Shown: piece after piece, positions 392 through 13,037 of the stretch
How the letters are laid out: the number at the start of each line of letters is the position of its first letter
Numbering within the stretch: the stretch's first letter is position 1
Assembly (NCBI GenBank): GCA_002361535.1
Contig: DETG01000005.1
Coordinates: 1 to 16,161, forward strand
Direction: 5' to 3'
Length of the DNA stretch: 16,161 bases
From: Prevotella sp. UBA3294
GTDB taxonomy: Bacteria; Bacteroidota; Bacteroidia; Bacteroidales; Bacteroidaceae
The notes under the pieces: model-generated
Database searches by the model: none
The model's input: only the letters and a program-made list of their open reading frames with translations
What the model was told of the DNA's origin: nothing
Made by a program: the position numbers and the translations under genes

Positions 392-835
392 TTAATCCCC
401 ACCGTTCTCTTCCGGCTTCTCCTCATTCACCTGAGGCACAGGCACCACGGTACAGCCGTTGATGAACGTCTTCGAACGGTTTCCGTTAGCAGCGATCTTC
501 GTCTCCGGCTGGAACACCACGTGAACGTTCTTCACATGCTTGCGCACGTCGTAGTCATCTGCCTCGTCAATGCCTTTGGAACTGATTCCGAGCTTGAAGG
601 CTCCGAAGCCGTTCAGGTGAACGCGCTTTGAGTCCTGAAGCACATCGGCCATGGTCTCGATCAGTTCGGCAATGACAGCCACGATGTCCGACTTCTTCAG
701 CGTACAGTTGCGCTGCATGATGGTGGCAAGCTTGTTGATGTCCACCGTCTCGGTGATCACAGCCTTGGCATACCATTTGCCGCGGTTCCTCGCGTTCTCG
801 CCCTTCACCTGTGATAATCGGTAAAATACTGACAT
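392..835 (-). CDS. HU-like DNA-binding protein (HU-HIG type)
   Basis: This is a 147-residue protein beginning MSVFYRLSQVKG. That opening, followed by KWYAKAV, is characteristic of the Bacteroidetes HU-like (HU-HIG) family, which binds DNA as a histone-like dimer. The middle (about residues 28-75) is the helical HU body, with 'IVAVIAELIETMADVL'. 'VHLNGFGAFKLGISS' near residues 77-91 is the typical HU beta-strand and turn. The C-terminal tail is acidic (NEEKPEENGGD). I chose 835 over the in-frame ATG at 880 because a strong AAAGGAGGACTAT Shine-Dalgarno sits directly upstream and family members start MSVFY. It has its own promoter at 945-975, between it and the end of res. It probably belongs to the same cassette as smalltalk. 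Its exact role, structural or element-specific, cannot be told from sequence. Confidence 0.88.
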   Translation of the reverse strand: MSVFYRLSQVKGENARNRGKWYAKAVITETVDINKLATIMQRNCTLKKSDIVAVIAELIETMADVLQDSKRVHLNGFGAFKLGISSKGIDEADDYDVRKHVKNVHVVFQPETKIAANGNRSKTFINGCTVVPVPQVNEEKPEENGGD

Positions 836-900
836 ATAGTCCTCCTTTCTTTGTACCCCTGGGGTCGTCCCTCCTTTCACTGACGTACCCGGGGGTGGTT

Positions 901-975: not shown

Positions 976-1029
976 GGAAAAGCGTGTTGGGCAGTTAGCC
1001 AAAAAAGACCCAAACTCCTTTCCAAGTCA

Positions 1030-4000
1030 TTAATCTTGTGATTTGCTATCCAATAATACTATCATTGACAGCATTTGTTCTATATAATCTCTGTCATCAT
1101 CTTTCTGGAAAAGCACATGATGGTCTGCAAAATCCTTCTGAGAGCCCCAGTCATTCACTTCCCGGTATTTGGTGTTGGATATGATAAAACTGTTCAGTTT
1201 GATATCCACATCCCTTAGCGATGGTTCAATCTCTGCTTTCAGTTCCTTAAAGAGGTTTATCTTTTCGTTTTCCAGTCGGTTCTTCAGATTGCGGATTCCC
1301 TTGGGGTCGATGAACACCACATGTTGATGCTCACCATTTTTCAGCCACAGGATAAAGTCGGGGTAGAAATTGCTGTTCTCAAAAAAGCCTATGCCCTTAC
1401 GGCTCTCATTGCGAAGCAGATATAACTCTTTCCCTTTCAGTAAATCATTCTGGCGGTTATTATAGTAATCGCGCAAATCTTCGACGAACTTGGATTCTCC
1501 TTCATTCAAGGCGATAGGCGACACTTTTATCAAAGGCTCGTTGTTTTCAGAATCCACAAGCACGTTTTTTCCTACTTCGTTCTTGGGATTTAGGCAGAGC
1601 AATGGATAATACAGATGTTGGTCAAAACGGAGAGACTTAATCCAGTTTCTATATATCGACATGTCAGCACTTGTCTTAAAATTCTCAGCAAGCTCGCGTA
1701 GTCGCTCTATCCACTCTTCTTTGTCCTTTCTTACTTCTACTGTATATTCGTCAAAGAAGTTATTATCATCTTCGCTGAGATAAACCGTTTCCAGGTGTTG
1801 CTTCTCATAACGACCTCTGCAAATCTTGAATGCATGTTCCAGATATCCACCTAACAGCGAGATCGTGATATCTTCCCAACGAGCAACATCCAAAGCAAAA
1901 TGATTGCCTTCCATTTCTTCACGTTGGATCTTCAATTCATACCAATCGTGTTCTTTCATCAGGTCTTTCAAGAAGGTCATATCTATCTCCATATTGGTCC
2001 AACCACGCTCCTGTTTCAGATGTTCCAAGGCGAAAAACACCCTGTTCCAACTGATAAATGCCAGATGACGAGTACCGATGAACTGGGGGGCAACGACAGG
2101 TGCCTCCGCTGCCGAGTCACTCTCAAGGGCCTGCACCTTGGGCATACGGTCAAGTTTGATGAAAGCCCCCTTCCTGTAATCCTTCGGATAGACGGTTACA
2201 TCTTTCTTGAAGTCATATCCTTTCTTTAGGCGAACCACCTTCAGTTTCTTGCTTCCTAACAGATTAATGGTAGGTATTTCGATTTTCTCATATCTGTCAA
2301 CACTTGATGGCAATCCTTCACCTTCCAGATATTTACGGAAGGCATCCATATACTCAGCACGAACGCCGAACACATTCAGTGTTTCTATCTCACGGATAGC
2401 CTTTGGCAGTTTACCCACCTGATAACCAGCATCCAGTTTTGAGCTACGCTTCAACGAATATTTAAAGCCTTTCAGTCGAACACCACGACCAAATAACTGT
2501 ATAATTTCAGAGCCTTCACTGCGCCCAACATTCATCAGTCCCATGACAGATACGCGCCAACTGCTCCATCCTTCATTGAATTTCTTCGAGCCAATCAGAA
2601 TACTGATAGTGGAACTTTCCTCATCAATATTTGAGAAAAGTGACTTACCTGTAAACTGTGGTGTAGAGCAATTCAACCCTTTCTCTTTACACAATTTCAT
2701 CAGGCTATCTGTATCACCCACATTGATCACTCCAAAGTGACGGGCGTCACCCAAGCGAAGTCCTATTTCATCATTCTCGCCACCGCTCAGTTTCTCAATA
2801 TAGAGATGAGCATTCGATACCGTGCTGTTAAACAACTTCTGGCGAATCTGTTGATATACCTCACGGGAATAAGTCATTTCTTGCCCTTCCTTTATCCCAT
2901 CTCGGCAAAGCATAAACGAGTCGGCAAAGAGGTTGTAGCCCTCAGTGCTACGGATACCGTCTTCATAAGATAGCAGACGCTTGATATAAAGGCTAAACTC
3001 GTCTGGGTGTTCAATAAAGTCCTGAATGAAGAATAATATCTGAACCACATCACTCACAGAGTGCTTGTTTTCAGTTCGTACAGCCGTTACTTTGTCACCT
3101 ACGAAAATACCTAAAGGACGGGCTATGAGGAATTCTTTTCGAATGCGGGGCGTTGACTGATACACCAGCATCTGCTCATATAAACAAAGCAGATAGGCCG
3201 TCATATACATATTGAAGACCTCTTCATTATCCCACTGGCTCATGTTCATGATACGGTAGTCCTTCCCATAGCCGTCTTCATAGAAATAACGGTAACTATA
3301 GTCGAAGATGACACTTTTACCATACTCATTCAGAAGTGCATCCTTGCTGGCACCACTTTGGGCTGCAATGGCCTGTCCGAAGGTGGCAGAATATTCAAAA
3401 GAGAAGCCCTCTTTTGTCAATGTGTTACGATAACCTTTCCAAACGTCTCCACCACTTCCTCTGTGACCTTCATCCACCAATACTAAGTTATTGCCTTCAA
3501 AACTCTCAACAGCTACCGTCTTATCTCCATCCGTCAAGGCCAGTTTGTTTACATCAATCACTTCAATGGTCTGACCTTTAAAGAAATGATTTTGTGCCTG
3601 CTTGGAGAAAATCTCTGCCACAAAGCCTGATGATTGCAGCCCCTTTAGATGCTGACGTGACAATCCTTCATTTGGCGTCAGTACAATGATTCGATTCAGT
3701 TTCTTAGCATGATATTTCTGCTGATAAAACAGGAACTGCTTGATGTTGATATGCATCAGCAGCGTTTTACCAGAACCAGTAGCATTCCAGAAAGCAAGTT
3801 TATTCAAATCGTTTTCCTCGAAAGGAGCAATCTCTTTCCAGTTACCTTCTTCTGTGGTAAAACGACTCTTCAAAAACTCATTAATCTCTGCCAACAACTT
3901 TTTGCTATCAGCAAAATAGTAATCCAAATAAATTTCAGTAAAAAGCAGGGAAAGGTATTGGAAATATTTCCACTGAACTTTATGCTGCCTACGCTGGTTA

Positions 4001-4257
4001 ATCTCCTTGGTGAACTTCACAATATGGCGATCATATTCCAGCAACTGCAGCTCTGTGATACTACTTTTATATAACAGAAAGCGAATCTGATAATACAACT
4101 TTGAGATACCATCATCGTCTGTCCCCTCTAACGAGGGATCTTTTAGGTCCTTGCTCAGTTCTTCCAAATCTTTGCATCCAAAGAGGTGCAACAAGTACTT
4201 GTTCAGAACAAGTGCCTGTCCGAGTTTTACAGGAGGTACAAATTGTTTCTTTGCCAT
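1030..4257 (-). CDS. res: type III-like restriction enzyme, Res (helicase-nuclease) subunit
   Basis: This 1075-residue protein is the ATP-dependent cutting subunit of a type III-like restriction system; it would act with Mod on unmodified foreign DNA. Helicase motifs appear in order: Walker A ATGSGKT (about residues 159-165), motif II DEGH (262-265), SATF (motif III) and motif VI QLFGRGVRL (587-595). Near the C-terminus 'YPDFILW' followed by 'FIDPKG' gives a PD-(D/E)xK nuclease signature (D967, D984, K986), as in type III Res proteins. The domains are intact and no frameshift is visible. The ATG lies 3 bases after the mod stop codon, and GGAG at the end of mod serves as ribosome site, so the two genes are translationally close and surely co-transcribed. 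There is no specificity subunit, which argues against type I. Confidence 0.9.
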   Translation of the reverse strand: MAKKQFVPPVKLGQALVLNKYLLHLFGCKDLEELSKDLKDPSLEGTDDDGISKLYYQIRFLLYKSSITELQLLEYDRHIVKFTKEINQRRQHKVQWKYFQYLSLLFTEIYLDYYFADSKKLLAEINEFLKSRFTTEEGNWKEIAPFEENDLNKLAFWNATGSGKTLLMHINIKQFLFYQQKYHAKKLNRIIVLTPNEGLSRQHLKGLQSSGFVAEIFSKQAQNHFFKGQTIEVIDVNKLALTDGDKTVAVESFEGNNLVLVDEGHRGSGGDVWKGYRNTLTKEGFSFEYSATFGQAIAAQSGASKDALLNEYGKSVIFDYSYRYFYEDGYGKDYRIMNMSQWDNEEVFNMYMTAYLLCLYEQMLVYQSTPRIRKEFLIARPLGIFVGDKVTAVRTENKHSVSDVVQILFFIQDFIEHPDEFSLYIKRLLSYEDGIRSTEGYNLFADSFMLCRDGIKEGQEMTYSREVYQQIRQKLFNSTVSNAHLYIEKLSGGENDEIGLRLGDARHFGVINVGDTDSLMKLCKEKGLNCSTPQFTGKSLFSNIDEESSTISILIGSKKFNEGWSSWRVSVMGLMNVGRSEGSEIIQLFGRGVRLKGFKYSLKRSSKLDAGYQVGKLPKAIREIETLNVFGVRAEYMDAFRKYLEGEGLPSSVDRYEKIEIPTINLLGSKKLKVVRLKKGYDFKKDVTVYPKDYRKGAFIKLDRMPKVQALESDSAAEAPVVAPQFIGTRHLAFISWNRVFFALEHLKQERGWTNMEIDMTFLKDLMKEHDWYELKIQREEMEGNHFALDVARWEDITISLLGGYLEHAFKICRGRYEKQHLETVYLSEDDNNFFDEYTVEVRKDKEEWIERLRELAENFKTSADMSIYRNWIKSLRFDQHLYYPLLCLNPKNEVGKNVLVDSENNEPLIKVSPIALNEGESKFVEDLRDYYNNRQNDLLKGKELYLLRNESRKGIGFFENSNFYPDFILWLKNGEHQHVVFIDPKGIRNLKNRLENEKINLFKELKAEIEPSLRDVDIKLNSFIISNTKYREVNDWGSQKDFADHHVLFQKDDDRDYIEQMLSMIVLLDSKSQD

Positions 4258-4260
4258 CGA

Positions 4261-7200
4261 TTACTCCTCCATAAACATACGGTTTAAGAACTCCTCGTCT
4301 GTGAGCATCACCTGCCAATTCTCATCATCATGAATCTTTGACTGCAAGGTGTTTTCACCATTCACGTAGATGACATCCACATCCTTAGCCAAATCACGTA
4401 GCTCTGGCTTTTCGAAACATTCCAGTAACCTGGCGTTATCTATCTTCTCCTGATTACGCCAGATAGCCATAGTCTTCTGATGTTCGCGGTGGGTTTCACC
4501 CAAAACTACGCAGATGTTATCATCTTCTAACCAGCGTTCTTTCTCTACATTCAAACCTATCAGGTAATTGAACGTATCCACCATATCCACCTTCGTCGGA
4601 ACCAGTTCATTATTACGCGTGGTCTTCAGTTCTACATTGAATGGATTTACAAACATCTTCAAGTCGAGCAATGAATCTCTGGACTCTGTATCAAGCAGAT
4701 AGTTGAGCATATAGCCATCTTTGAAGTCATCCTCGAATTCTAACTCCTGCTTCTTCAGTTTCAGATTGTTAAGTGTATCTTCGTACTGCTCCAAGCGGAT
4801 GTATTTGAAACACTGGGAAACGCCCTTGCGAGAAACAGGCTTACCGTTTTTCCAGTCTTCAGAGTAGATTACTTTTTCAACACGTGTTCTTGTAACGTCA
4901 TCAAAATAAGTTCCCATCTCAACTGTAAGATACTTACGATGATTCATTTCTTTATTTTCCTTAATAACAGCATGAGCCGTTGTACCAGATCCTCCGAAGA
5001 AATCAAGGATGACCGCATTTGGTTTGTTTAGGCATGCTAATTGGACACTCTTAGTAAGCGTATTTATAGATTTTGGGAAATCAAATTTTTTACTTCCTAA
5101 TATGTTAATCAACAAGGTATTTCCATAACTACCCGCATCATATTCACCACCTTTCCAAACGGTTTTCGGGATTGTCATTTCATGAGTAACAAATAAATCC
5201 CAGATTCCATCATCTTCAATAGCCGTTATTCTATTAAGGTTCTCATTAATGGAATCCAAACCGAAATTCCATCTTCTTTCAACCAAATTCTGATCAATTG
5301 GCCATATTGCTATCGTACCGTCAGGCATTACTTCATTCTTATTTGGATGATAATTATCATCAGGAACTTCACCAACTTTGACAATCTTTCCATTCTTAAC
5401 GTATATGGGATAAAATGATTGACGTCTTTCTGTTCTCTTAGAATTTTCACCCCAACGTCTCATTTTTCTTGGAGTGTCGTTTTCCTCTAAAATTCTTGCT
5501 ATCGCATTTTTGTTAGTTTCTTCTGTTATGAATATTGCATATTCATGAGTTCTGTTGAAATCTTTTGTAGGCGATCCTTTAGGATTATGCACTACGGTTA
5601 TTGGTGATATTCTGTGTTCAGTAAACCTTTCTTTTAACAACATGGAAAGGTTTGTTAATTCCGTATCATCTATAGCCACCGTATATACGAAATTAGAAGC
5701 AAGAAGATTTTGAGATAATATTAATCTGTCCTGCATTAAAGATAGCCACGATGAATCCAAATACCCATTCTTATATAGAATTGGTGCAGAATCTGTATTG
5801 TATGGTGGATCAATATAGCAATAATCTACACCTTGACTATACTTATTCTGCAAGAACTGCAACGCCTGGAAGTTCTCACTATTAATCAGCAAGCCATTTG
5901 TCTGTTCATCAATATTCTCAAAACTTGCAGCCAACTGATGCTTGAACTTCGCATCGAAGAAAGCCGTGTCGAGTACCAGATAAGGATTCTGTTTTAGGAA
6001 CTCGATAGTCAGAGGCTCACTATAGCCTTCCTTCATCAAGTCACCTTTAATCTCGTCAATAGCAAAAAGTCGCACCCATTCCTTACGCTGAGCATCATTA
6101 TGAATAATGTCTTGGTAGAGGCTTTCCGGCACGCGGTCGAGAGTGATGCAATAATCGCTCTGAACCACAAATTTCTTCTTCAGCCACAACTTCTTCTGGA
6201 AATTCTCCAACTGCGCTAACATCTGGATAATCTTCTGACCTACATTTTTGATAGCCTTGGCTACACCTAAGCGCTTCTGAATGTTTATCTCATCGAGGTC
6301 ATCAATATTGATCACCTCATTCTTCAGGTAGAAGTCAAGTTCGCGACTCAGGAAACCACCAAGGTCCTTATGGATGAAATAGTCAAAAGAGTTCTTGGCC
6401 ATATAGTCCGTCAGATGCTTTTCCAAAAGCGTTCTTTCGGGCTTCTTGGGCAGAGGCATCAGAGTAGTAATCAACTGCTGGTAATCTGCGGGCAACATTG
6501 CGGAAATCTCCTCAAGGGCAGCGGTTCTCAAATCATCCTGTTTAGTGGCCTTGGGCATCAGTTCGTATGTGAAATAGATGTTTAGATCACCATTTTCAGC
6601 CATCTCCACCACCTTTTCTTCTGCGCCTTCTTCAGGCTTATATAGTGCAAAGCGACGCTCCTTGCCTTTGTCTGACTTATTGTTGTTCTGCTCTGTGGAG
6701 GCATCTTTCAGCACAAAGTGAACCTTACGATGCGACTTTGGCAGTTCAAAGGTATAGTCACGGAAATACTCTGAGGTCTTGATGTAATACTGATCAGAGT
6801 TGGCCCAGTGCAGTTTTACTTCCTCACCGTTATAGGGTATGGCGTATGTGTCAGCCTTATAGCGTCGCTTTGAGAGGAAATCCCCTCCCTCATAATAGCG
6901 CGAGAAGAAAGTGACAAGGTGAGAAAACACCTCGTTACGTAGTTCCTCAGGATTGCCCATCTTGTGAAGCTGTTCTTCGTTGGCGTCGTATTCCTTTCTT
7001 AACGGAATAGTCGGAGGAAGAACACTGATGTCACCGCCAGCCATTTCTAAGATTTCCTTCTGGCGCTTTTGTAGTCTTTCCAATTCCTTCTCATCAATAT
7101 CCAAAGAACTGCCCACCTGCTTAAGCAGACGATTCTCAAGGAAATCCTGTATGTCGTCGCGTTTCTGGTTCATGATGCGGTAAATGCCAAAGTCCAGCTC

Positions 7201-7266
7201 TGCATGATCCATCATAAAAATTTCCTGAAGCTTTGCCAAAAATTCTTCGTAGTATTTATTGACCAT
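4261..7266 (-). CDS. mod: type III-like DNA adenine methyltransferase (Mod)
   Basis: This protein (1001 residues from the chosen start) is an N6-adenine DNA methyltransferase that would set the specificity of the mod-res pair. The catalytic motif DPPYN begins near residue 486, and the AdoMet-binding motif 'DFFGGSGTTAHA' near 755. DPPY before FGGSG is the beta-class order typical of type III Mod. The segment between them should hold the target-recognition domain; it is markedly AT-rich. The protein is well above the roughly 600-700 residues of classical Mod proteins because of a roughly 450-residue N-terminal region beginning MVNKYYEEFLAKLQEIF, with a coiled-coil-like stretch, whose function I cannot assign. 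I prefer the start at 7266 to 7344: the promoter-like TATCTTTG at 7293-7300 lies between them, and the family motif LDFGIYR follows closely. It heads the operon with res. Confidence 0.88.
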   Translation of the reverse strand: MVNKYYEEFLAKLQEIFMMDHAELDFGIYRIMNQKRDDIQDFLENRLLKQVGSSLDIDEKELERLQKRQKEILEMAGGDISVLPPTIPLRKEYDANEEQLHKMGNPEELRNEVFSHLVTFFSRYYEGGDFLSKRRYKADTYAIPYNGEEVKLHWANSDQYYIKTSEYFRDYTFELPKSHRKVHFVLKDASTEQNNNKSDKGKERRFALYKPEEGAEEKVVEMAENGDLNIYFTYELMPKATKQDDLRTAALEEISAMLPADYQQLITTLMPLPKKPERTLLEKHLTDYMAKNSFDYFIHKDLGGFLSRELDFYLKNEVINIDDLDEINIQKRLGVAKAIKNVGQKIIQMLAQLENFQKKLWLKKKFVVQSDYCITLDRVPESLYQDIIHNDAQRKEWVRLFAIDEIKGDLMKEGYSEPLTIEFLKQNPYLVLDTAFFDAKFKHQLAASFENIDEQTNGLLINSENFQALQFLQNKYSQGVDYCYIDPPYNTDSAPILYKNGYLDSSWLSLMQDRLILSQNLLASNFVYTVAIDDTELTNLSMLLKERFTEHRISPITVVHNPKGSPTKDFNRTHEYAIFITEETNKNAIARILEENDTPRKMRRWGENSKRTERRQSFYPIYVKNGKIVKVGEVPDDNYHPNKNEVMPDGTIAIWPIDQNLVERRWNFGLDSINENLNRITAIEDDGIWDLFVTHEMTIPKTVWKGGEYDAGSYGNTLLINILGSKKFDFPKSINTLTKSVQLACLNKPNAVILDFFGGSGTTAHAVIKENKEMNHRKYLTVEMGTYFDDVTRTRVEKVIYSEDWKNGKPVSRKGVSQCFKYIRLEQYEDTLNNLKLKKQELEFEDDFKDGYMLNYLLDTESRDSLLDLKMFVNPFNVELKTTRNNELVPTKVDMVDTFNYLIGLNVEKERWLEDDNICVVLGETHREHQKTMAIWRNQEKIDNARLLECFEKPELRDLAKDVDVIYVNGENTLQSKIHDDENWQVMLTDEEFLNRMFMEE

Positions 7267-7292
7267 ATTTCGGTGTTTAACGTTTTCTGATG

Positions 7293-7300
7293 CAAAGATA
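7293..7300 (-). promoter_or_regulatory. probable -7 box of the mod-res promoter
   Basis: TATCTTTG on the minus strand fits TAnnTTTG and would start transcription near 7286, about 20 bases before the mod ATG. I do not see a good TTTG box at the proper distance upstream, so the promoter may be weak or activated. The gene-free DNA upstream carries the palindromic repeat at 7379-7438, which could act as an operator. Confidence 0.45.
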
Positions 7301-7378
7301 ACAATTATTTTTGAGAATATGTCATTCTTCGAAAACAGATTCAAGGAAAATCACATTATTTAAGAAAACTGAAGTAAC

Positions 7379-7438
7379 GGTTCCAAATGTCCTTTTCGGA
7401 TAATATGCTCTCCAAAAGTGACAGATATAGACTGTCAC
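7379..7438 (+). repeat. left copy of a 60-bp inverted repeat (candidate element end)
   Basis: This segment contains CTTTTCGGATAATA and then a 21-bp interrupted palindrome (GTGACAG, 7 bases, CTGTCAC; 7418-7438). Nearly the same sequence is found in inverted orientation at 12285-12346; by eye about three quarters of positions agree, with one or two gaps. The two copies point toward each other and bracket five minus-strand genes. They may be terminal repeats of a mobile element, or paired binding sites for one regulator. Confidence 0.6.
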
Positions 7439-7463
7439 TGATTCATGTTCCTTTTGTACGAAA

Positions 7464-7481
7464 GGCACCTGCTTCGGTGCC
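7464..7481. other. short hairpin GGCACC/GGTGCC
   Basis: GGCACC-TGCTTC-GGTGCC is a perfect 6-bp stem with a 6-base loop. It sits between the inverted repeat and the 21-bp repeats. No T-run follows on either strand, so it is not a clear terminator. It resembles the GC-rich hairpins in the leaders at 901-922 and 11500-11525. Confidence 0.4.
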
Positions 7482-7515
7482 ATCATGGTGGAACCAGTAG
7501 GGGATCTTTTCCGCT

Positions 7516-7609
7516 GAAAACGGCGTTTTCAGACGTGGAAACAACGTTTTCAGACGCGAAAACGGCGTTTTCAGAGGATGAAAACAAGGATTTCGGAGGA
7601 TGGAAACAG
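7516..7609. repeat. about five tandem 20-22 bp palindromic repeats
   Basis: Units start near 7516, 7538, 7558, 7580 and 7602. The clearest is GAAAACGGCGTTTTCAGA, whose GAAAAC...GTTTTC part is self-complementary. The last two units are degenerate. The mean period of 21 bases is 7 codons, so a frame on either strand reads as heptad repeats (for example LKTPFSR on minus, KTAFSD on plus), but no well-supported gene uses them. They lie just downstream of the zinc-ribbon gene. Confidence 0.7.
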
Positions 7610-7614
7610 GGGGT

Positions 7615-7800
7615 TCATGGAGGAACACCCCGTTTCCGTGCATTCTTTCTCTCTTCCAGTTCGCGGAGGATGCGGCGCTCGCGACTGGGTTTGACGTAAT
7701 AGAGCCATTTGCAATGGTTACACACCCGACGGTAGGTTCCCGTCTTCATTCGTTCTAATTTCGATCGGGGCAGGTTCTGCCCGCATTTTGTACAAATCAT
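7615..7800 (-). CDS. small zinc-ribbon protein, 61 aa, unknown function
   Basis: A 61-residue basic protein beginning MICTKCGQNLP. Two CxxC pairs (C3/C6 and C27/C30) about 20 residues apart make a classic zinc ribbon. The C-terminal half (WLYYVKPSRERRILRELEERKNARKR) is strongly basic and helical. This suggests DNA or RNA binding, or a protein adaptor, but I do not recognise the family. It is on the same strand as the primase-helicase, about 230 bases downstream of it, with a GC-rich hairpin repeat between. The ATG at 7800 is the first residue before the conserved-looking CxxC, and no longer start is plausible. Unlike the opposite-strand frame overlapping it, its composition and cysteine pattern look like a real protein. 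Confidence 0.65.
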   Translation of the reverse strand: MICTKCGQNLPRSKLERMKTGTYRRVCNHCKWLYYVKPSRERRILRELEERKNARKRGVPP

Positions 7801-7817
7801 GGTTTTCTTTTGATTGT

Positions 7818-7930
7818 CACCCCGACCCTGCCCCTCCCCTTAAAGAGGCGGGGAGCGCCATGCGGCATGAAACCGCCAACACTGCGCAGCCACTCCCCTC
7901 CCATCTAAGGGGAGGGGCAGGGGTGGGGTG
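7818..7930. repeat. GC-rich hairpin repeat, family copy 1
   Basis: The outer arms, 7818-7841 (CACCCCGACCCTGCCCCTCC...) and 7907-7930 (...GGAGGGGCAGGGGTGGGGTG), are inverted repeats with few mismatches. The roughly 65-bp interior, read on the minus strand, resembles the interior of the repeat at 10754-10934 (GGCTG-CGC-GTGTT...CATG...CCGCATGGC). This is an interspersed palindromic element lying between genes; it could fold in RNA and affect transcript ends or stability. Confidence 0.7.
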
Positions 7931-8027
7931 AGTTAGGTTCTTATGTTTCGCAAGTTCTATTTTTCGAAGCAAGAGGTAAGAAGCAGGAAGCAAGAGAAAG
8001 CGAAGCCTGCGAAAGTTCAGTTAGGTT

Positions 8028-9953
8028 TTACACTTCATTGAGCGGTAGCGGAGGTTCCTTTGTCAGGCCCAGCCAGCAGTGGTTGTTCATGGGCAGGATC
8101 TCGTACTGGTTAAGCTGGTCGGTGATGTGGATGGTTTTCACCGCCCCGTGCCTGTAGTTGTCGGGGTTGAAGGAGAGGTGGCAGATGCCCTTGCGCCCCA
8201 TCTGGTCGTCGCGCACCTTATCGATGATCACCTTCAGCAGGTGCATCTGTCTGTTCCCCCCTTTGCGGTTCGCCCTGTCGTCGTTGACCAGCACCAGACC
8301 GTAGTCGGCCCTGTTGCGGAACTCCGCCGATCCCGAAGCGTTGTACAGTGAGGTGATCTCCTCTCCCTTCTGCGGTTTGGAAGGGTGTACCACGATGATG
8401 ACGAGCAGTCCGGTGCGATGTGCGAAGAGCTCGATCTCTGCGAGGATGTCGCCGATCTTCATCGTGTCGCTTTTCGCCCCGTCGGGCAGCTGGATGTAGT
8501 TAAAGGGGTCGAGCAGCAGCTGTCGTATGCCGTAGCGTGCCTGTAGCTGTTCGGCTCTGTGGAGCAGTTTATGGATGGTGCGCCCTGATGTCTCCGTGAT
8601 GAAGAACACATTGTCCTGCAGCCAGTCGAGGATCCGTTCAGCCATGGGTTGCGGTATCGACACCTGTCGGTAGTCGATGCCCTGCTCGGTGGTCACCGTC
8701 TCCTTGCGGAAGCGCCGACCGGCCAGTGTCGTGGCGAGCCGTTCCACATGTCTTTCCGGTGGGAACATCTCAGGGGAATAGAGTGCCGCCTTCCATCCGT
8801 GCTGTACGCAGAGGTTCAGGATGAGGTCGTCGGCGAAGGTTGACTTCCCCGTGTTCGGTTCCCCGACGATGATTACCGACCGTCCTGCCTCGAACTGCAC
8901 ATGATCGTCGAACTCCCCCCACCCCACCTTCTTCCCCGGTGGTACGCCATACTGCCAGATGTCGAGCACGCGCTGCCGGTAGTCGGCGATTGTCTCCACG
9001 CCCGTGATGGGACAAGGCTGCGCATGGTTCATGCACTGCATCACGGCATCCTTTCCGTAGTTCATCAGCATCTCGTTGGCATCCTTGGCGTAGTGTGTCA
9101 CCGTACCGTTGTCGCTGCTGCTGGTGACCTCCCATCTCACGATGCGGCACCGTGCCTCCCCGAAATACTCCGCCAGCCGCTGCCGCATTTTCTCCCCTTC
9201 CTCATCCATGTCACCTGCCAGGTAGATGGTTTTCAACGGATCGAAGTGCGAGTATCGGAACCGGTCGAAGGAGTGCGTGTCGGTCTGTGCTCCGTTCCCT
9301 GCACTGATCACGTTGTCGTAGCCCGTCTCGATGAGTGCCAGAGCGTCCATCATGCCCTCAGTGATGATGACGGAGTCCTGTCCCAGTGCGGCATCGATGT
9401 TCCAGGGGATGATCTCGCAGCCGCTTTCCATGGCGAACTGCTTGTCGGTTGTCTTGTACTGGATATTCACCACGCGGTTTCCCTCGATGAAGGGGAAGGC
9501 GAGGCAGTCGCGCTCCAGCTTCCCGATCATCATACGTGCCGACCTCACGCCGGTGCGCTGTGCCGTCTGCGGCTGGATACCCCTGCGGAACAGGTAGTCG
9601 ATAGCCACGGCACTGAGTGGTGTGAGCTTCGTTGTGTCGGGCAGGCTGTACGACTGTTTCCGCGCTGTCTGTCGTTTGTCGTACTCCCTCACCTTTTCGC
9701 TGATGATGAACCGGAATCCGCATTTGTAGCATTTCCCGAATCCTGTGAGACGGTCGAGTCGCACACAGGGGTCATTGCCGTGTTTCTTGACATCGGCGCA
9801 GTCAGGACAGGTGCATCTCACCACCTGCGGGAGCTCACCTTCGCTGTCGGCCTTCGTCTTGATGTTCAGCTGATCCCAGGGCACGATGTAGTAACCCGTG
9901 GGCGTCTGTTGCCAGTTCTTCACTGACTTATATATGAGTTCGTCTTGCTTCAT
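8028..9953 (-). CDS. primase-helicase (DnaG-type zinc finger, Toprim, DnaB/T7 gp4-like helicase)
   Basis: This 641-residue protein has the layout of phage T7 gp4 and Twinkle. CPDC (49-52) and CYKC (75-78) form an N-terminal zinc ribbon, as in DnaG primases. A Toprim domain follows, with the catalytic glutamate in ITEGMMDA (E199) and acidic cluster GDMDEEG (247-253). The C-terminal half is a RecA-like hexameric helicase: Walker A GEPNTGKST (364-372), Walker B LLLDPF (D482), VVHPSKP (about 522-528) and GSAEFRNRADYGLVL (541-555), the equivalent of the DnaB/gp4 DNA-binding and arginine-finger region. It should unwind DNA at a fork and may lay down primers. All key motifs are present. Its ATG overlaps the end of the upstream gene by 26 bases, so the two are coupled. 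High GC (one 60-base stretch counted at about 58%) sets it apart from mod-res. It most resembles phage or element replication proteins rather than the host replisome. Confidence 0.88.
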   Translation of the reverse strand: MKQDELIYKSVKNWQQTPTGYYIVPWDQLNIKTKADSEGELPQVVRCTCPDCADVKKHGNDPCVRLDRLTGFGKCYKCGFRFIISEKVREYDKRQTARKQSYSLPDTTKLTPLSAVAIDYLFRRGIQPQTAQRTGVRSARMMIGKLERDCLAFPFIEGNRVVNIQYKTTDKQFAMESGCEIIPWNIDAALGQDSVIITEGMMDALALIETGYDNVISAGNGAQTDTHSFDRFRYSHFDPLKTIYLAGDMDEEGEKMRQRLAEYFGEARCRIVRWEVTSSSDNGTVTHYAKDANEMLMNYGKDAVMQCMNHAQPCPITGVETIADYRQRVLDIWQYGVPPGKKVGWGEFDDHVQFEAGRSVIIVGEPNTGKSTFADDLILNLCVQHGWKAALYSPEMFPPERHVERLATTLAGRRFRKETVTTEQGIDYRQVSIPQPMAERILDWLQDNVFFITETSGRTIHKLLHRAEQLQARYGIRQLLLDPFNYIQLPDGAKSDTMKIGDILAEIELFAHRTGLLVIIVVHPSKPQKGEEITSLYNASGSAEFRNRADYGLVLVNDDRANRKGGNRQMHLLKVIIDKVRDDQMGRKGICHLSFNPDNYRHGAVKTIHITDQLNQYEILPMNNHCWLGLTKEPPLPLNEV

Positions 9954-10683
9954 CTTGTATGTACTGCTGTTGTGATTGATTGAGTTGTGTATAGGCAGAG
10001 CGCATCATGAAGTTCTCCGATGGCATGCTCTTGCGACGGTCGTGCTCAGTCTGCCTGTCGAGTTCGTCCAAGGGCACCCAGCGGTCGGACACCACGCTCC
10101 ACCCGCTATAGACATCGGTCTGAGGAGGCGCCCACCACGGTACGGTGTTCCCATGACTGTCGTGCCGCACTCCTTCGAGGTCGATGGTCTCGTAGGCCGA
10201 CGGACCGATCACGCACCGGGTGCCGTTGGGGAGGCTGCCGGCATGACTGTCCTCTTCACTGCCGTCATGAGGGGGCTGGGGGGTGGTGGGTTCCGGGCGG
10301 GTGTCTTTCTGACACACGCCGCCCGGTTTTTCTTTGTTTTCTTTTTCTATTTCTTTTTCTATTTCTTCACCTGCGTTCCTTTTAATACGCGCAGGTGAGT
10401 ATTCAATCATGAATGAATCCCGGAAGCGTTTCCCCTCAATCTCGAACAGGCCAAAATCGCAAATAATATGGTTGATATAGGCCCTCGATTTCCTGGCCTG
10501 GGAAGCAAGTGCCGACAGCTGCGCATTCGTATAAAGACCTTCTAAGTCATCACACTGGGAGAGATACAGCAGGATCATCATATAGGTTCCAAAGCCTGTG
10601 CCCCCTTCTTCTGTAAGGAGATCGGTCAGCTCAGGCCTGGACAACACACTGCGATACAATTTGATAAATCCCTTATTCTTCAT
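9928..10683 (-). CDS. replication-initiator-like protein with putative winged-helix N-terminus
   Basis: This 251-residue protein starts MKNKGFIKLYRSVLSRPEL. The first 100 or so residues (GTYMMILLYLSQC..., then SALASQARKSRAYINHIICDFGLFEIEG) look like the winged-helix N-terminal domain found in phage and element replication organisers, loosely like the Lin1244/Lin1753 (DUF4373) group. A charged low-complexity link follows (EEIEKEIEKENKEK, about residues 108-121), then a Pro/Gly-rich region and a polar tail. It precedes and overlaps the primase-helicase by 26 bases, a common pairing of initiator/loader and helicase. I infer that it brings the helicase to an origin. No catalytic motif is visible. 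The family assignment is tentative; the coding call is firm. Confidence 0.7.
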   Translation of the reverse strand: MKNKGFIKLYRSVLSRPELTDLLTEEGGTGFGTYMMILLYLSQCDDLEGLYTNAQLSALASQARKSRAYINHIICDFGLFEIEGKRFRDSFMIEYSPARIKRNAGEEIEKEIEKENKEKPGGVCQKDTRPEPTTPQPPHDGSEEDSHAGSLPNGTRCVIGPSAYETIDLEGVRHDSHGNTVPWWAPPQTDVYSGWSVVSDRWVPLDELDRQTEHDRRKSMPSENFMMRSAYTQLNQSQQQYIQDEARRTHI

Positions 10684-10753
10684 TGTAAAAAGATTTCAAA
10701 CGTTTTAAAGTTCTGTTGTAGGTGTTCATTTTGTTTTTATCATAAAATTACTG

Positions 10754-10934
10754 ACCCCACCCCTGCCCCTCCCCTACGATGGGAGGGGAGCGGCTGGCGC
10801 TGTGTTAACATGAAGCAGTCCGCATGGCAATCCATTACAATGGGGAGCTGCTGGTGCTGTGTTAACATGAAGCAGTCCGCATGGCAATCCCCTCCCATTG
10901 TAGGGGAGGGGTGAGCGTAGCGAGGGGTGGGGTC
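10754..10934. repeat. GC-rich hairpin repeat, family copy 2, with duplicated 57-bp core
   Basis: Outer arms (ACCCCACCCCTGCCCCTCCC from 10754, and GGGGAGGGGTG... to 10934) are inverted repeats, interrupted on the right by GAGCGTAGC. Inside, a 57-bp unit is present twice in tandem (10785-10841 and 10842-10898); 35 bases (10799-10833 and 10856-10890, starting GCTGTGTTAACATGAAGCAG) are identical. The core is related to that of the copy at 7818-7930 in the opposite orientation. It fills the gap between the M15 peptidase and the replication genes. Confidence 0.75.
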
Positions 10935-10941
10935 CTGTCAC

Positions 10942-11394
10942 TCATTCCTTCATCAGCTGGAGTGCCTGACCTCTGTTCTTTTTCATATCGATGCGGCAGC
11001 TCACATGCACCCACCATGAGCCCCTTCGGGAATGCTCGAGGATCAACTGGTCGTAGGGGATGTGCTCTTTCATCCAGTTGAAAAGGAAACGCGCCATCTG
11101 TTCCTCACTCCCTACCGACAGGGGCCACCACCGCCGGGCAATCTGGATATCAGCGGCTTCACCCAGCAGATGCTGGGAATTACTGACACCACCCACGGCA
11201 CGGTTCAGCGGTTCGCAACGGTAACCGCTGGTGATGAGGATGGGGCGGCAGAGTTGCAGACGGGTAGGTTCCAGACAATTCACGGTGAGGTTCCTGATGC
11301 GCAGGATATGACACTTCAGGGGGATATTGGGGATTCCGAGTCGTTCGGCTGTTCTGGAGTATAGGAATTCCTTAAGCCTGAAATGTGCTGACAT
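10942..11394 (-). CDS. M15-family peptidase (D-Ala-D-Ala carboxypeptidase / endolysin-like)
   Basis: This 150-residue protein starts MSAHFRLKEFLYS and matches the compact Peptidase M15 type (M15_3) that cuts peptides of cell-wall peptidoglycan using zinc. The metal ligands are visible in SQHLLGEAADI (H75, D82) and WVHVS (H130), with E120 in 'LILEHS' a likely general base. The pattern ITSGYRCEPLN around residue 55 is typical. There is no signal peptide or membrane segment, so export would need a holin-like route or lysis, as for phage endolysins. I chose 11394 over an in-frame ATG at 11421 because GGAGG lies 4 bases before it and family members start like this. It has its own promoter (11597-11627) and a leader of almost 200 bases. 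Confidence 0.85.
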   Translation of the reverse strand: MSAHFRLKEFLYSRTAERLGIPNIPLKCHILRIRNLTVNCLEPTRLQLCRPILITSGYRCEPLNRAVGGVSNSQHLLGEAADIQIARRWWPLSVGSEEQMARFLFNWMKEHIPYDQLILEHSRRGSWWVHVSCRIDMKKNRGQALQLMKE

Positions 11395-11478
11395 CGGTTC
11401 CTCCATGTCAATAATATTCATAAAAAACAGTTGATAAATTAGGTTGATTTTGATAGAAAAGAAATGCCTTGGGCGGAC

Positions 11479-11525
11479 GTGGATGAGACACCCACTTTTC
11501 GGGCACCATCATACGACGGTGCCCG
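11479..11525 (-). promoter_or_regulatory. two stem-loops in the leader of the M15 peptidase gene
   Basis: CGGGCACCATC/GACGGTGCCCG (11500-11525) forms an 11-bp stem with one mismatch and a 4-base loop. GTGGATG/CACCCAC (11479-11495) forms a second stem with one G-T pair. Both lie between the promoter and the ATG. No U-run follows, so they are unlikely to be simple terminators; control of mRNA stability or translation is possible. Part of the first stem (11510-11525) matches the HU-like leader. Confidence 0.5.
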
Positions 11526-11596
11526 ATAGTAATAATTGCATTGTTACCTTTTTCATTGTTATAGATCTTTTTTTTGTCATGAATAAAAACACAATG

Positions 11597-11627
11597 CAAA
11601 GGTAGTGAAAAAGCGAGGCGATTGCAA
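11597..11627 (-). promoter_or_regulatory. Bacteroidetes-type promoter for the M15 peptidase gene
   Basis: On the minus strand TTG (11625-11627), then 20 bases, then TACCTTTG (11597-11604). This is the same arrangement and the same -7 box as before the HU-like gene. Transcription should start near 11590, 19 bases or more past the stop of the upstream 125-residue gene, so that gene and the peptidase are separate units. Confidence 0.75.
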
Positions 11628-11645
11628 GGAACGGCCTACAATGTG

Positions 11646-12023
11646 CTATACAATTGTATATAGGAAAAGGCACATGAGGGGCAGGACATTCACTGTCTTG
11701 TACTTGCGCAGCTGGGCATAGAGGGTGGGCATGCTGCACGACAGGTTGGTGTGATCCACGAGATAGATGGCCAGCGTGCGCATGTTGTCATCCACCAGGG
11801 GATGATGGCACAGGAGCCTTCCCAAGTCGATCAACACGTTCATCACCTGGATCCTGCTGAAATCGAATGCGAACCACGACAGATCCAGGGCATCGACATC
11901 GGGAGGACAGCCGATGAGGAAGGGGCGCCAGGAGTTAATAACTTGCCGCAATTCCTGATGGAATGATGGGCGGAACAATGCAGACAGCGATGTGTCTTTC
12001 ACGATTAAATCTCTGTGTTTCAT
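11646..12023 (-). CDS. hypothetical protein, 125 aa
   Basis: I do not recognise this protein, which begins MKHRDLIVKDTSLS. It is predicted mostly helical, with hydrophobic stretches (for example VNVLPLMCLFLYTIV at the extreme C-terminus) but no clear signal peptide, metal site or catalytic motif. It is supported as a gene by its own well-formed promoter at 12221-12251, position as first gene of the minus-strand series, and the absence of competing frames with a better context. It lies inside the 7.4-12.3 kb inverted repeats. No strong Shine-Dalgarno is seen before the ATG (AATATTTATG), which is common in Bacteroidetes. The function cannot be inferred. Confidence 0.6.
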   Translation of the reverse strand: MKHRDLIVKDTSLSALFRPSFHQELRQVINSWRPFLIGCPPDVDALDLSWFAFDFSRIQVMNVLIDLGRLLCHHPLVDDNMRTLAIYLVDHTNLSCSMPTLYAQLRKYKTVNVLPLMCLFLYTIV

Positions 12024-12076
12024 AAATATTAATGTTAGAAAAACAGAGGTGGGGCATCAGGAAAGAAATCAACTTC

Positions 12077-12136
12077 GGGTTCACCACAAACCCTACCAGA
12101 GAAGTCATACCAAAATGCCCACACCTGGAGGGTGTG
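12077..12136 (-). promoter_or_regulatory. two stem-loops in the leader of the 125-aa gene
   Basis: CACACC-TGGAG-GGTGTG (12120-12136) and GGGTT-CACCACA-AACCC (12077-12093) can form stems within the roughly 190-base leader. The arrangement, two stem-loops between a TAnnTTTG promoter and the ATG, is like that of the M15 leader, although the sequences differ. Confidence 0.4.
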
Positions 12137-12220
12137 AGCTGGCAGACAATCTTTCTCTGGTTTCTTTTTTTATATGGTGATTTGAAGTTAAAAGAAAGCT
12201 GTCATTGCTCTTTTATGTTG

Positions 12221-12251
12221 CAAAGTTATGAAATAATGGCCAACCCACAAA
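12221..12251 (-). promoter_or_regulatory. Bacteroidetes-type promoter for the 125-aa gene
   Basis: On the minus strand TTTG (12248-12251), then 19 bases, then TAACTTTG (12221-12228), a full match to the Bacteroidetes consensus. Transcription should start near 12214. The right copy of the inverted repeat lies 34 bases upstream. Confidence 0.75.
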
Positions 12252-12284
12252 ATTATTCGCTGCCTTTTTTGGCTACATTTTTAC

Positions 12285-12346
12285 GTGACAGTCTATAGAC
12301 TGTCTTTTTTAGGGGGACTATTATCCGAAAAGAACATTAGAAATCC
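12285..12346 (-). repeat. right copy of the 60-bp inverted repeat (candidate element end)
   Basis: Read on the minus strand this is GGATTTCTAATGTTCTTTTC..., with CTTTTCGGATAATA and then GACAGTCTATAGACTGTC, a perfect 18-bp palindrome (12287-12304). It pairs with the copy at 7379-7438, in the opposite orientation. The outer side carries the CGGATAAT block and the inner side the palindrome in both copies, as expected for element ends. Confidence 0.6.
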
Positions 12347-12356
12347 TCTCAAGATC

Positions 12357-12414
12357 GTTGGATTTCATCCTACCTTTTCTCGCCATGGCAAGAAAAGGTA
12401 GGATGAAATCCAAC
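12357..12414. repeat. 58-bp near-perfect palindrome
   Basis: The arms are 29 bases each, meeting at GCCATGGC. They pair at 28 of 29 positions; the only mismatch is 12381 against 12390. The arm starts GTTGGATTTCATCCTACC. No T-run follows closely on either strand. It could form a cruciform or a very stable RNA hairpin, act as a bidirectional transcription barrier next to the candidate element end, or be a recombination site. Confidence 0.85.
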
Positions 12415-12436
12415 TATACAGTTTTTATGTCTAAAG

Positions 12437-12568
12437 TAGAGCCTGATTACATTGCAAACAAAGTCTGATTGCGTTGAAAGTAAAGCCTACTTAATGTTTA
12501 CGTAGAGTCTACTTAATGTTTACGTAGAGTCTATTTGCGATGAAAGTAGAGTCTGTTTATCCCACACG
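12437..12568 (+). repeat. 22-bp direct repeats (iteron-like), five units plus a partial
   Basis: Units with an exact 22-base period start at 12437, 12459, 12481, 12503, 12525 and 12547 (degenerate in its second half). The conserved head is TAGAGTCT (variants TAGAGCCT, CAAAGTCT, TAAAGCCT). The units at 12481 and 12503 differ at only 2 of 22 bases (TAGAGTCTACTTAATGTTTA CG form). Units abut with no spacers, so this is not a CRISPR. The layout is like replication iterons or a regulator-binding array. Confidence 0.8.
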
Positions 12569-13037
12569 GAAGTTGCTCTTATTTTCCTATGCTCTGCACC
12601 GATGCGGCATGGCGAAAACTGAAGAAATGGATCAATTTGAACACTATTCTGAAGGCAAAGCTGTAACAGCAGAACTACCAAGAAGGCATACGGTCGTTCA
12701 CACCGCGCATGGTGGCATGTATTTTTGAAGAGTTGGGAAGTAACTTTGTTGGCTTGTTTTTTTCTCATCTACCATATACGTTGCTGCAAGCCATGCTCCT
12801 GATGGGCCTGCGAGGCGCCTTCATTCCGATGCTAGCATACGGTCGGCTGTCGTTATTGAATAAAGAAGTTAAAAGCTAGATGTCCTGTCTCTATTCAAAC
12901 GTTCTAACAGCGCCTTTTGATTTTGACAAAGCATACGGCTTAACTTCTTAGGCCGAAAGGTCGATAACTACTTTGTTGGGTGATAGTGAGGAATGGGGGT
13001 AACTCGTGCCTAAAAAATATTAATTCTTTGTAGATAT
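12569..13037. other. gene-free interval between repeats and GNAT genes
   Basis: I see no convincing gene in these 469 bases. Short frames on both strands (12540-12728 plus; 12520-12768 minus) run into the 22-bp repeats and have no family features. GCATACGG occurs three times (near 12686, 12833 and 12929). The stretch may be a decayed element or a dispersed intergenic repeat. Confidence 0.5.

Follow-up and report, generated by a model that had tools for sequence, protein, structure and literature searches.

Introduction

Short palindromic repeats of the REP/BIME and MITE types are dispersed between the genes of bacterial genomes. In Bacteroidales, recurring gene sets combine VapE/BT4734-like, HU-HIG and endolysin-type genes. 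Mobile gene modules and places of variable defence genes have been described in several systems. In Acinetobacter, dif/pdif modules are described as genes bounded by short sites, which are recombined by host XerC/D in trans (PMC12907356, PMC6449649, PMC13141974). P2-like phages and P4-like satellites are reported to carry defence hotspots (PMC9122126), and Tn7-like transposons to carry defence genes as cargo (PMC8649781). Titles and abstract openings of the literature on related topics gave no account of the module or of the repeat described below.

The DNA analysed here, called the window, is the entire contig C51 (16,161 nucleotides) of Prevotella sp. UBA3294, a genome (G000) of 2.73 Mb in 133 contigs that is 80.7% complete. 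A first-pass annotation had described two inverted 60-bp repeats with palindromic cores that bracket five genes. It read these genes as a block that moves or inverts as a unit between the repeats, and named a common regulator of both sites as the alternative. We conclude, at a probability of roughly 0.6, that the genome holds at least four copies of a small dispersed unit, the 60-mers being two of these, and that the unit lies at joints of a larger, mobile and cargo-bearing module.

Results

The inverted pair and other repeats of the window

The features of the window are the following; G262 is, as judged from sequence similarity, the closest relative met.

1–25, no strand: IS1182-like element end, in a terminator-like hairpin after HU
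392–880, minus strand: HU-HIG DNA-binding protein, last of the conserved module genes
1005–7402, minus strand: cargo, type III restriction-modification between two joints, missing from both HU-side contig ends of G262 (C34, C19)
1030–4257, minus strand: res (REase_III, 6e-198)
4261–7344, minus strand: mod (MTase_III, 1.6e-209)
7379–7450, plus strand: left copy of the unit, with box CTTTTCGGATA at 7392–7402, spacer, palindrome GTGACAGATATAGACTGTCAC at 7418–7438 and GATTCATG
7615–7800, minus strand: 61-residue zinc-ribbon-like protein (name from the first-pass annotation; no family match), 83–92% identical in L030, L064 and L066
8028–9953, minus strand: TOPRIM primase/DnaB-type helicase, by family match and homologues
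9928–10683, minus strand: initiator-like protein (likewise named earlier; no family match), position conserved
10942–11421, minus strand: M15 peptidase, endolysin-like, by family match, conserved
11646–12023, minus strand: 125-residue protein, first gene of the block, with a G153 homologue (38%) in the equivalent place
12262–12346, minus strand: right copy of the unit, with palindrome at 12287–12304 and box at 12323–12332
12354–12417, no strand: hairpin with 32-base arms from another dispersed repeat, centre GCCATGGC

The two repeats align as had been described. Positions 7379–7438 and the reverse complement of 12285–12346 have CTTTTCGGATAATA identical in both arms, and both contain a GACAG/CTGTC palindrome with a loop of 7 or 8 bases, outside which the similarity is weaker. 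Without gaps, the arms 7381–7424 and 12300–12343 are 44 nt long and 77% complementary. With gaps they extend to 53 bp at 81%, with an E value of 4.3e-7 in a search of the whole genome; the inverted pair is therefore beyond chance. Inverted intergenic repeats are common in the window. It holds 27 exact inverted 14-mer pairs, compared to a mean of 0.56 and a maximum of 6 in 100 first-order Markov sequences, a count that takes in other repeats and hairpin arms as well. A longer inverted pair (7887–7944 with 10739–10796, 58 nt, 84%) lies within the block itself. The five block genes are on one strand, which HU, res and mod share. Outside the view of the first-pass annotation are two more copies of the repeat on contig C85, and a conserved gene set that extends past the left repeat.

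Several other repeat families are found near the block. The longer inverted pair belongs to GC-rich inverted repeats of the CCCCACCCCTGCCCCTCCCC type, also present at 7819–7864 and 10885–10934, which bracket the primase/helicase and initiator genes; CCCCACCCCTGCCCCTCCCC-like sequences are dispersed in G262, G179 and G094. On contig C5 of G262 the M15 gene is deleted, and one joint of the deletion lies near a GC-rich repeat. A second palindromic intergenic family has GCCATGGC at its centre and occurs at 12382–12545 and elsewhere in G000 (C57:10248–10412, C85:437–517, C133:4428–4461). Its partner arms differ at each place, and stretches of it are found at 83–92% in G179 and G094. Arrays of 21–22-bp near-palindromic units lie at 12433–12559 (AAAGTAGAGTCTACTTA type, with at least 12 listed places in G262) and at 7516–7583 (GAAAACGGCGTTTTCAG type), and an analogous array stands by the zinc ribbon in G153.

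Form and distribution of the unit

Aligning the copies gives a unit of about 70 bp, which consists of a box CTTTTCGGAT, a spacer of about 14 bp and the palindrome GTGACAG-N7/8-CTGTCAC, followed by GATTCATG in several copies and by AAAATG in others. The two window copies differ in loop length, 7 versus 8 bases, and are oriented oppositely relative to the adjoining genes. The region of the right copy (12275–12391) is 97% identical to C85:358–474 over 117 bp. A 71-base query around this copy, searched in G000 and 149 other genomes of the genus, finds three places, all in G000: itself, C85:363–433 (97%) and the left copy (81%). The strict pattern of palindrome plus box finds four places among 398 genus genomes, again all in G000 (7392–7436, 12287–12332, C85:255–300 and C85:370–415). 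Zero places in the other 397 genomes is a result for the strict form only, and the pattern undercounts: G262 is among the 398, and its two full units are missed as they have CATCCGAAAAG where the pattern asks for TATCCGAAAAG.

These two full units of G262 lie on C34, between a umuC-like gene and HU, and on C28, between uraA-like and cobB-like genes (named by eye). Three further palindromes of G262 have no box; two of them lie in the HU–zinc ribbon slot, on C34 and C19, and the third is on C16. When 30 chosen genomes were searched with the palindrome pattern, three places were found in G000, the right copy being outside the pattern through loss of the outer bases of one arm, and five in G262. 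Seven of the other 28 genomes have one to three places each and 21 have none; control matches appear in 3 of the 30. In the modules of G153, G131 and G024, described below, we could not detect a unit with the strict pattern, with the palindrome pattern or in a scan of L064–L066, and the single palindrome-pattern place of G153 is on a contig other than that of the module. Absence elsewhere refers to the strict form in 398 genomes and to the palindrome in 30.

The unit thus has the properties of a dispersed intergenic palindromic repeat, with several intergenic copies at unrelated genes: four in G000, and two full and three box-less ones in G262. No module gene was found within the 7.6 kb read around the full unit on C28 of G262, and module joints are therefore not the unit's sole place. 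This is at least one copy that occurs singly before unrelated genes, the case which the first-pass annotation had named as speaking against repeats as ends. A search for the corresponding empty site, at the uraA/cobB-like site of G000, aligned the cobB side alone.

Parts of the unit are less specific. The box alone, with one mismatch allowed, gives 17 matches versus 3 in the control, and the 14 inexact ones have no such palindrome beside them. The palindrome alone (3–9-base loop, 5-base arms) gives 28 places per strand versus 53 in the control and is thus uninformative without the rest. Comparison with known RNA families gave eight matches in the window, all below the family gathering scores; six fall on the large hairpin at 12336–12429 and none on the unit. 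A 20-base pattern of the unit had no match in IMG/VR.

Conserved gene order

The primase/helicase occurs in 11 of 200 genus genomes (E 1e-30). We compared the window proteins with the primase/helicase loci by tblastn, which leaves 19 loci after three G000 stretches are dropped and L065 and L066 are counted as one. Zinc ribbon and HU are found in window order, with a variable gap between them, at seven of the 19 (L030, L064, L067, L070, L071, L072 and L073). L066 in G131 has the zinc ribbon without HU. L032 and L068 have HU without a zinc-ribbon match, on the opposite strand in L068, and L076 has a weak HU match. The remaining eight loci, several of them cut by contig ends, have neither. The gap between zinc ribbon and HU measures 0.24 kb in G153 (L064) and 1.7 kb in Xylanibacter ruminicola (L030). 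It ranges over 2.7–6.3 kb among the five G024 copies and reaches 6.7 kb in the window.

Comparison of the loci gives the order of the module as 125-residue gene, M15 peptidase, initiator-like gene, primase/helicase, zinc ribbon, variable cargo and HU-HIG. The five genes that the repeats bracket are most likely not a mobile unit by themselves. In a terminal-inverted-repeat element the mobile DNA ends at the repeats; here the conserved set reaches HU, past the left repeat, and no transposase or recombinase is found inside. Family scans of the module genes found no integrase, capsid, packaging, transposase or recombinase gene, in agreement with the earlier statement that the block contains no recombinase.

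The cargo slot and its joints

In the window, mod and res lie next to each other, as is characteristic of type III restriction-modification. Other modules have other genes in this place. The gap of L030 contains an AAA/DUF4143 ATPase gene. In G024, an ORF of 682–693 residues adjoins the zinc ribbon and is VapE-like in the one copy tested (L070). The space between this ORF and HU contains AbiLi- and RloB/AbiLii-like genes in L073, a RhuM/Fic protein in L067, small ORFs in L070 and L071, and no ORF as long as 90 residues in L072. We read the slot next to HU as a cargo slot that can hold defence-type genes. The EcoRI-type methylase and the GmrSD/HNH protein of G153 are on the other side of the module, so they are not cargo of the HU slot. 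For the restriction cargo of the window, plasmid records gave distant matches only (60–80% identity in 20 records, at most 10% of the query covered).

The joints of the cargo are seen by comparison with G262. On both C34 and C19, the sequence follows the window up to 1004, continues with about 6 bases (TGAAAT) and then follows the window from 7403 on, with the palindrome and the start of the zinc ribbon, to the contig ends. Positions 1005–7402 are therefore absent there. The left repeat lies on the cargo joint, because HU of G262 adjoins the palindrome without restriction genes between them. It straddles this joint, with box CTTTTCGGATA on the cargo side and the palindrome on the module side. 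G262 shares the palindrome and what lies to the right of it, and the box has no counterpart there. In five other units the distance between box and palindrome is near-constant. Either cargo joins would leave the box form of the unit, or G262 would have deleted cargo and box together; both inner palindromes of G262 being box-less, gain and loss of cargo look the same at the joint. The HU match on C19 (L146) is limited to the first 49 residues, and this contig carries in addition a 1302-residue Eco57I/ResIII-type methylase-helicase with an adjoining type IV-like nuclease.

Outer edges of the module

Contig C85 starts with 25 transposase codons, followed by the IS end. Over these codons the identity to two annotated IS1182 transposases is 60% and 56%, with E values of 0.01 and 0.2 that are weak by themselves. 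The start of the window is an IS end that resembles the one on C85, and GATTTG stands beside both. Joining the flanks of C85 and the window over one GATTTG creates a hairpin where C34 of G262 has one, between the outer unit and HU. C85 thus probably adjoins the window via a single IS1182 copy, with the other end of the window's copy at the C85 end, a link based on a short duplication and a hairpin and on no read. Joined in this way, the sequence would run from the GT operon over unit b, unit a and IS1182 to HU and the restriction genes, and from there over the left unit, the genes from zinc ribbon to 125-residue gene and the right unit to the GNAT genes, which would place units at both outer edges of the module.

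The C85 units are beside a gene run that resembles GT/nadA/ispG/purE (named by eye), and on C34 of G262 a unit is likewise at the HU-side outer edge. On C27 of G262, the counterpart of the GT operon, other genes come next, and no unit or module gene is found in the 9 kb read. On the right side, contigs C24 and C5 of G262 both depart from the window at 11729, inside the 125-residue gene, whose match there is confined to the last 29 codons; they share about 95 bp more and then diverge. Similarity of G262 to the window resumes at 13006 only, so that this right-hand joint has no relative for comparison. An empty site for 7379–12346 with a target duplication was looked for, and no relative with both flanks was found. 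Provided that C85 adjoins the window, five of the six full units are at a module edge or joint, two of the five in tandem there.

Mobility and origin of the module

Module proteins of G000 and G262 are nearly identical: HU in 162/162 residues, M15 in 158/159 and the initiator-like protein in 80/80 over its first 80, with 93–97% for the last 29 residues of the 125-residue protein. For the DNA of the GNAT and GT regions we observe 87% and 84% identity. Four contigs of G262 (C19, C34, C24 and C5) terminate inside module sequence, which we take to be two module copies that the assembly has collapsed. The G262 matches listed, with 40 of 109 first-look candidates scored, do not include the primase/helicase. 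In G024 the primase/helicase occurs at five places.

One SusC/SusD stretch (89% over 4.8 kb, same direction) adjoins the module in both G153 and G131, and the module has opposite orientations in the two, as defined relative to the left neighbour only, the right flanks being non-collinear. The next 1.7 kb outward, with a tyrosine-recombinase gene, are inverted between the two genomes. At the edges of the G153 module the best inverted repeats are 18–19-nt pairs that loosely bracket it, and at the G131 breakpoints no inverted pair was found between the gaps compared. No unit was seen at the modules of G153 and G131 in the searches described above, so it would not be needed for whatever turned or re-inserted the module there. 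These comparisons show that the module is mobile. Recombination in trans is a candidate mechanism for its movement.

The surroundings of other modules were recorded as well. L064, L065 and L072 are near tyrosine-recombinase genes at surface-protein loci: G153 and G131 have SusC/SusD there (L064 being the locus tested for the integrase domain), and G024 has fimbria-like genes (by eye). On C11 of G131 (L065 9240 to L066 2678), an insertion of about 10.4 kb with resolvase-like genes inside (by eye) splits the primase/helicase gene.

The primase/helicase and the M15 peptidase match phage families. Distant relatives of the primase/helicase are found in 1106 of 50,697 phage records, all below 60% identity and at about 26–32% in the rows seen. 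A pattern scan of IMG/VR found no close relative, and the DNA at 7360–12430 has no match in phage or plasmid records. A satellite-like origin of the module is possible.

Discussion

A dispersed repeat at module joints is the most likely explanation of the inverted pair; repeats as ends of the five genes, or as a common operator, fit less well. The units would mark the points at which cargo and module blocks came together. In the simplest form of this proposal, the scattered copies would provide homology for recombination in trans, by host recombination or by the recombinase of another element.

Unlikely is a selfish or passive intergenic palindromic repeat of the REP/BIME or MITE kind that came to module edges by chance in an intergenic mosaic. 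The genome does have mosaic palindromic repeats (12275–12391 matches C85, 12382–12545 matches C57) and a GC-rich inverted pair inside the block. One unit has no module gene in the sequence read around it, and in the forms searched the unit is found in two near genomes only. The location of five of the six full units at a module edge or joint if C85 adjoins the window, two of these in tandem, argues against a chance distribution.

A more specific reading is speculative, and we regard it as improbable. The unit would be a recombination site, with the palindrome and its 7–8-base centre as crossover core and the box as accessory arm. A host or co-resident recombinase would act in trans with the module's HU-HIG as a bending helper, defence cargo would be loaded and unloaded at the HU joint and module blocks would be turned, as in a pdif-like cassette system in Bacteroidales.

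We are equally doubtful of an operator, in which a dimeric regulator would bind the palindrome ahead of both mod and the 125-residue gene. Such sites are usually palindromes of 20–22 bp, and the left and right copies are upstream of these two genes. If C85 is taken without the link to the window, both its copies lie upstream of the start of the IS1182 transposase. The alternative of one regulator at both sites is nevertheless disfavoured by the position of three of the six full units between converging 3' ends: the outer copy on C34 of G262 and, only if C85 adjoins the window, both C85 copies. In addition, the window copies point opposite ways relative to the adjoining genes, and a simple operator would need neither the box nor the fixed spacing.

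Least probable is an element of about 5 kb with the repeats as its ends, moving or inverting as a whole through functions supplied in trans: the inverted order, the common palindrome and the mobility of the module, with opposite orientations beside one locus elsewhere, agree with it, and the earlier reading holds in so far as the block is part of a mobile module, but HU-HIG belongs to the conserved set and lies outside the repeats, beyond the restriction genes, the left repeat is a cargo joint, further copies are on C85 and on C28 of G262, no unit was seen at the modules of G024, G131 and G153 (though the strict pattern would miss variants), and loops of 7 versus 8 bases would not favour strand exchange between the two.

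If the module is a carrier, with a phage-type replication core, HU, a defence slot and no recombinase found, it would move restriction and abortive-infection systems between Prevotella. Sister genomes with and without cargo give exact joints at which cargo exchange can be tested. An inverted pair seen in one window can mislead, and joints become visible by comparison only.

The dispersed repeat at module joints resembles several known systems in part. As in dif/pdif modules, gene modules occur with short sites and a host system, here putative, would act in trans. In contrast to them, copies also occur without a module, and a palindrome with a 7–8-base loop and a separate box only loosely resembles dif. 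The unit differs from REP/BIME- and MITE-type repeats in that most full units are at module joints, given the probable position of C85, and in its conserved non-palindromic box at near-fixed distance. Defence cargo on a mobile backbone is shared with Tn7-like transposons, which differ by their transposase; no such gene is among the scanned module genes here. With P2-like phages and P4-like satellites the module has in common a backbone in which one place holds variable defence genes, and its primase/helicase and M15 match phage families. It differs from them in that its scanned genes include no integrase, capsid or packaging gene, in the lack of a DNA match for 7360–12430 in phage records and in the lack of an IMG/VR relative of the primase/helicase by pattern scan. 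Compared to the recurring Bacteroidales gene sets, the window copy has no VapE gene and holds type III restriction genes in the slot, whereas the G024 copies unite a VapE-like gene (tested in one), HU, primase/helicase and M15 much as those sets do.
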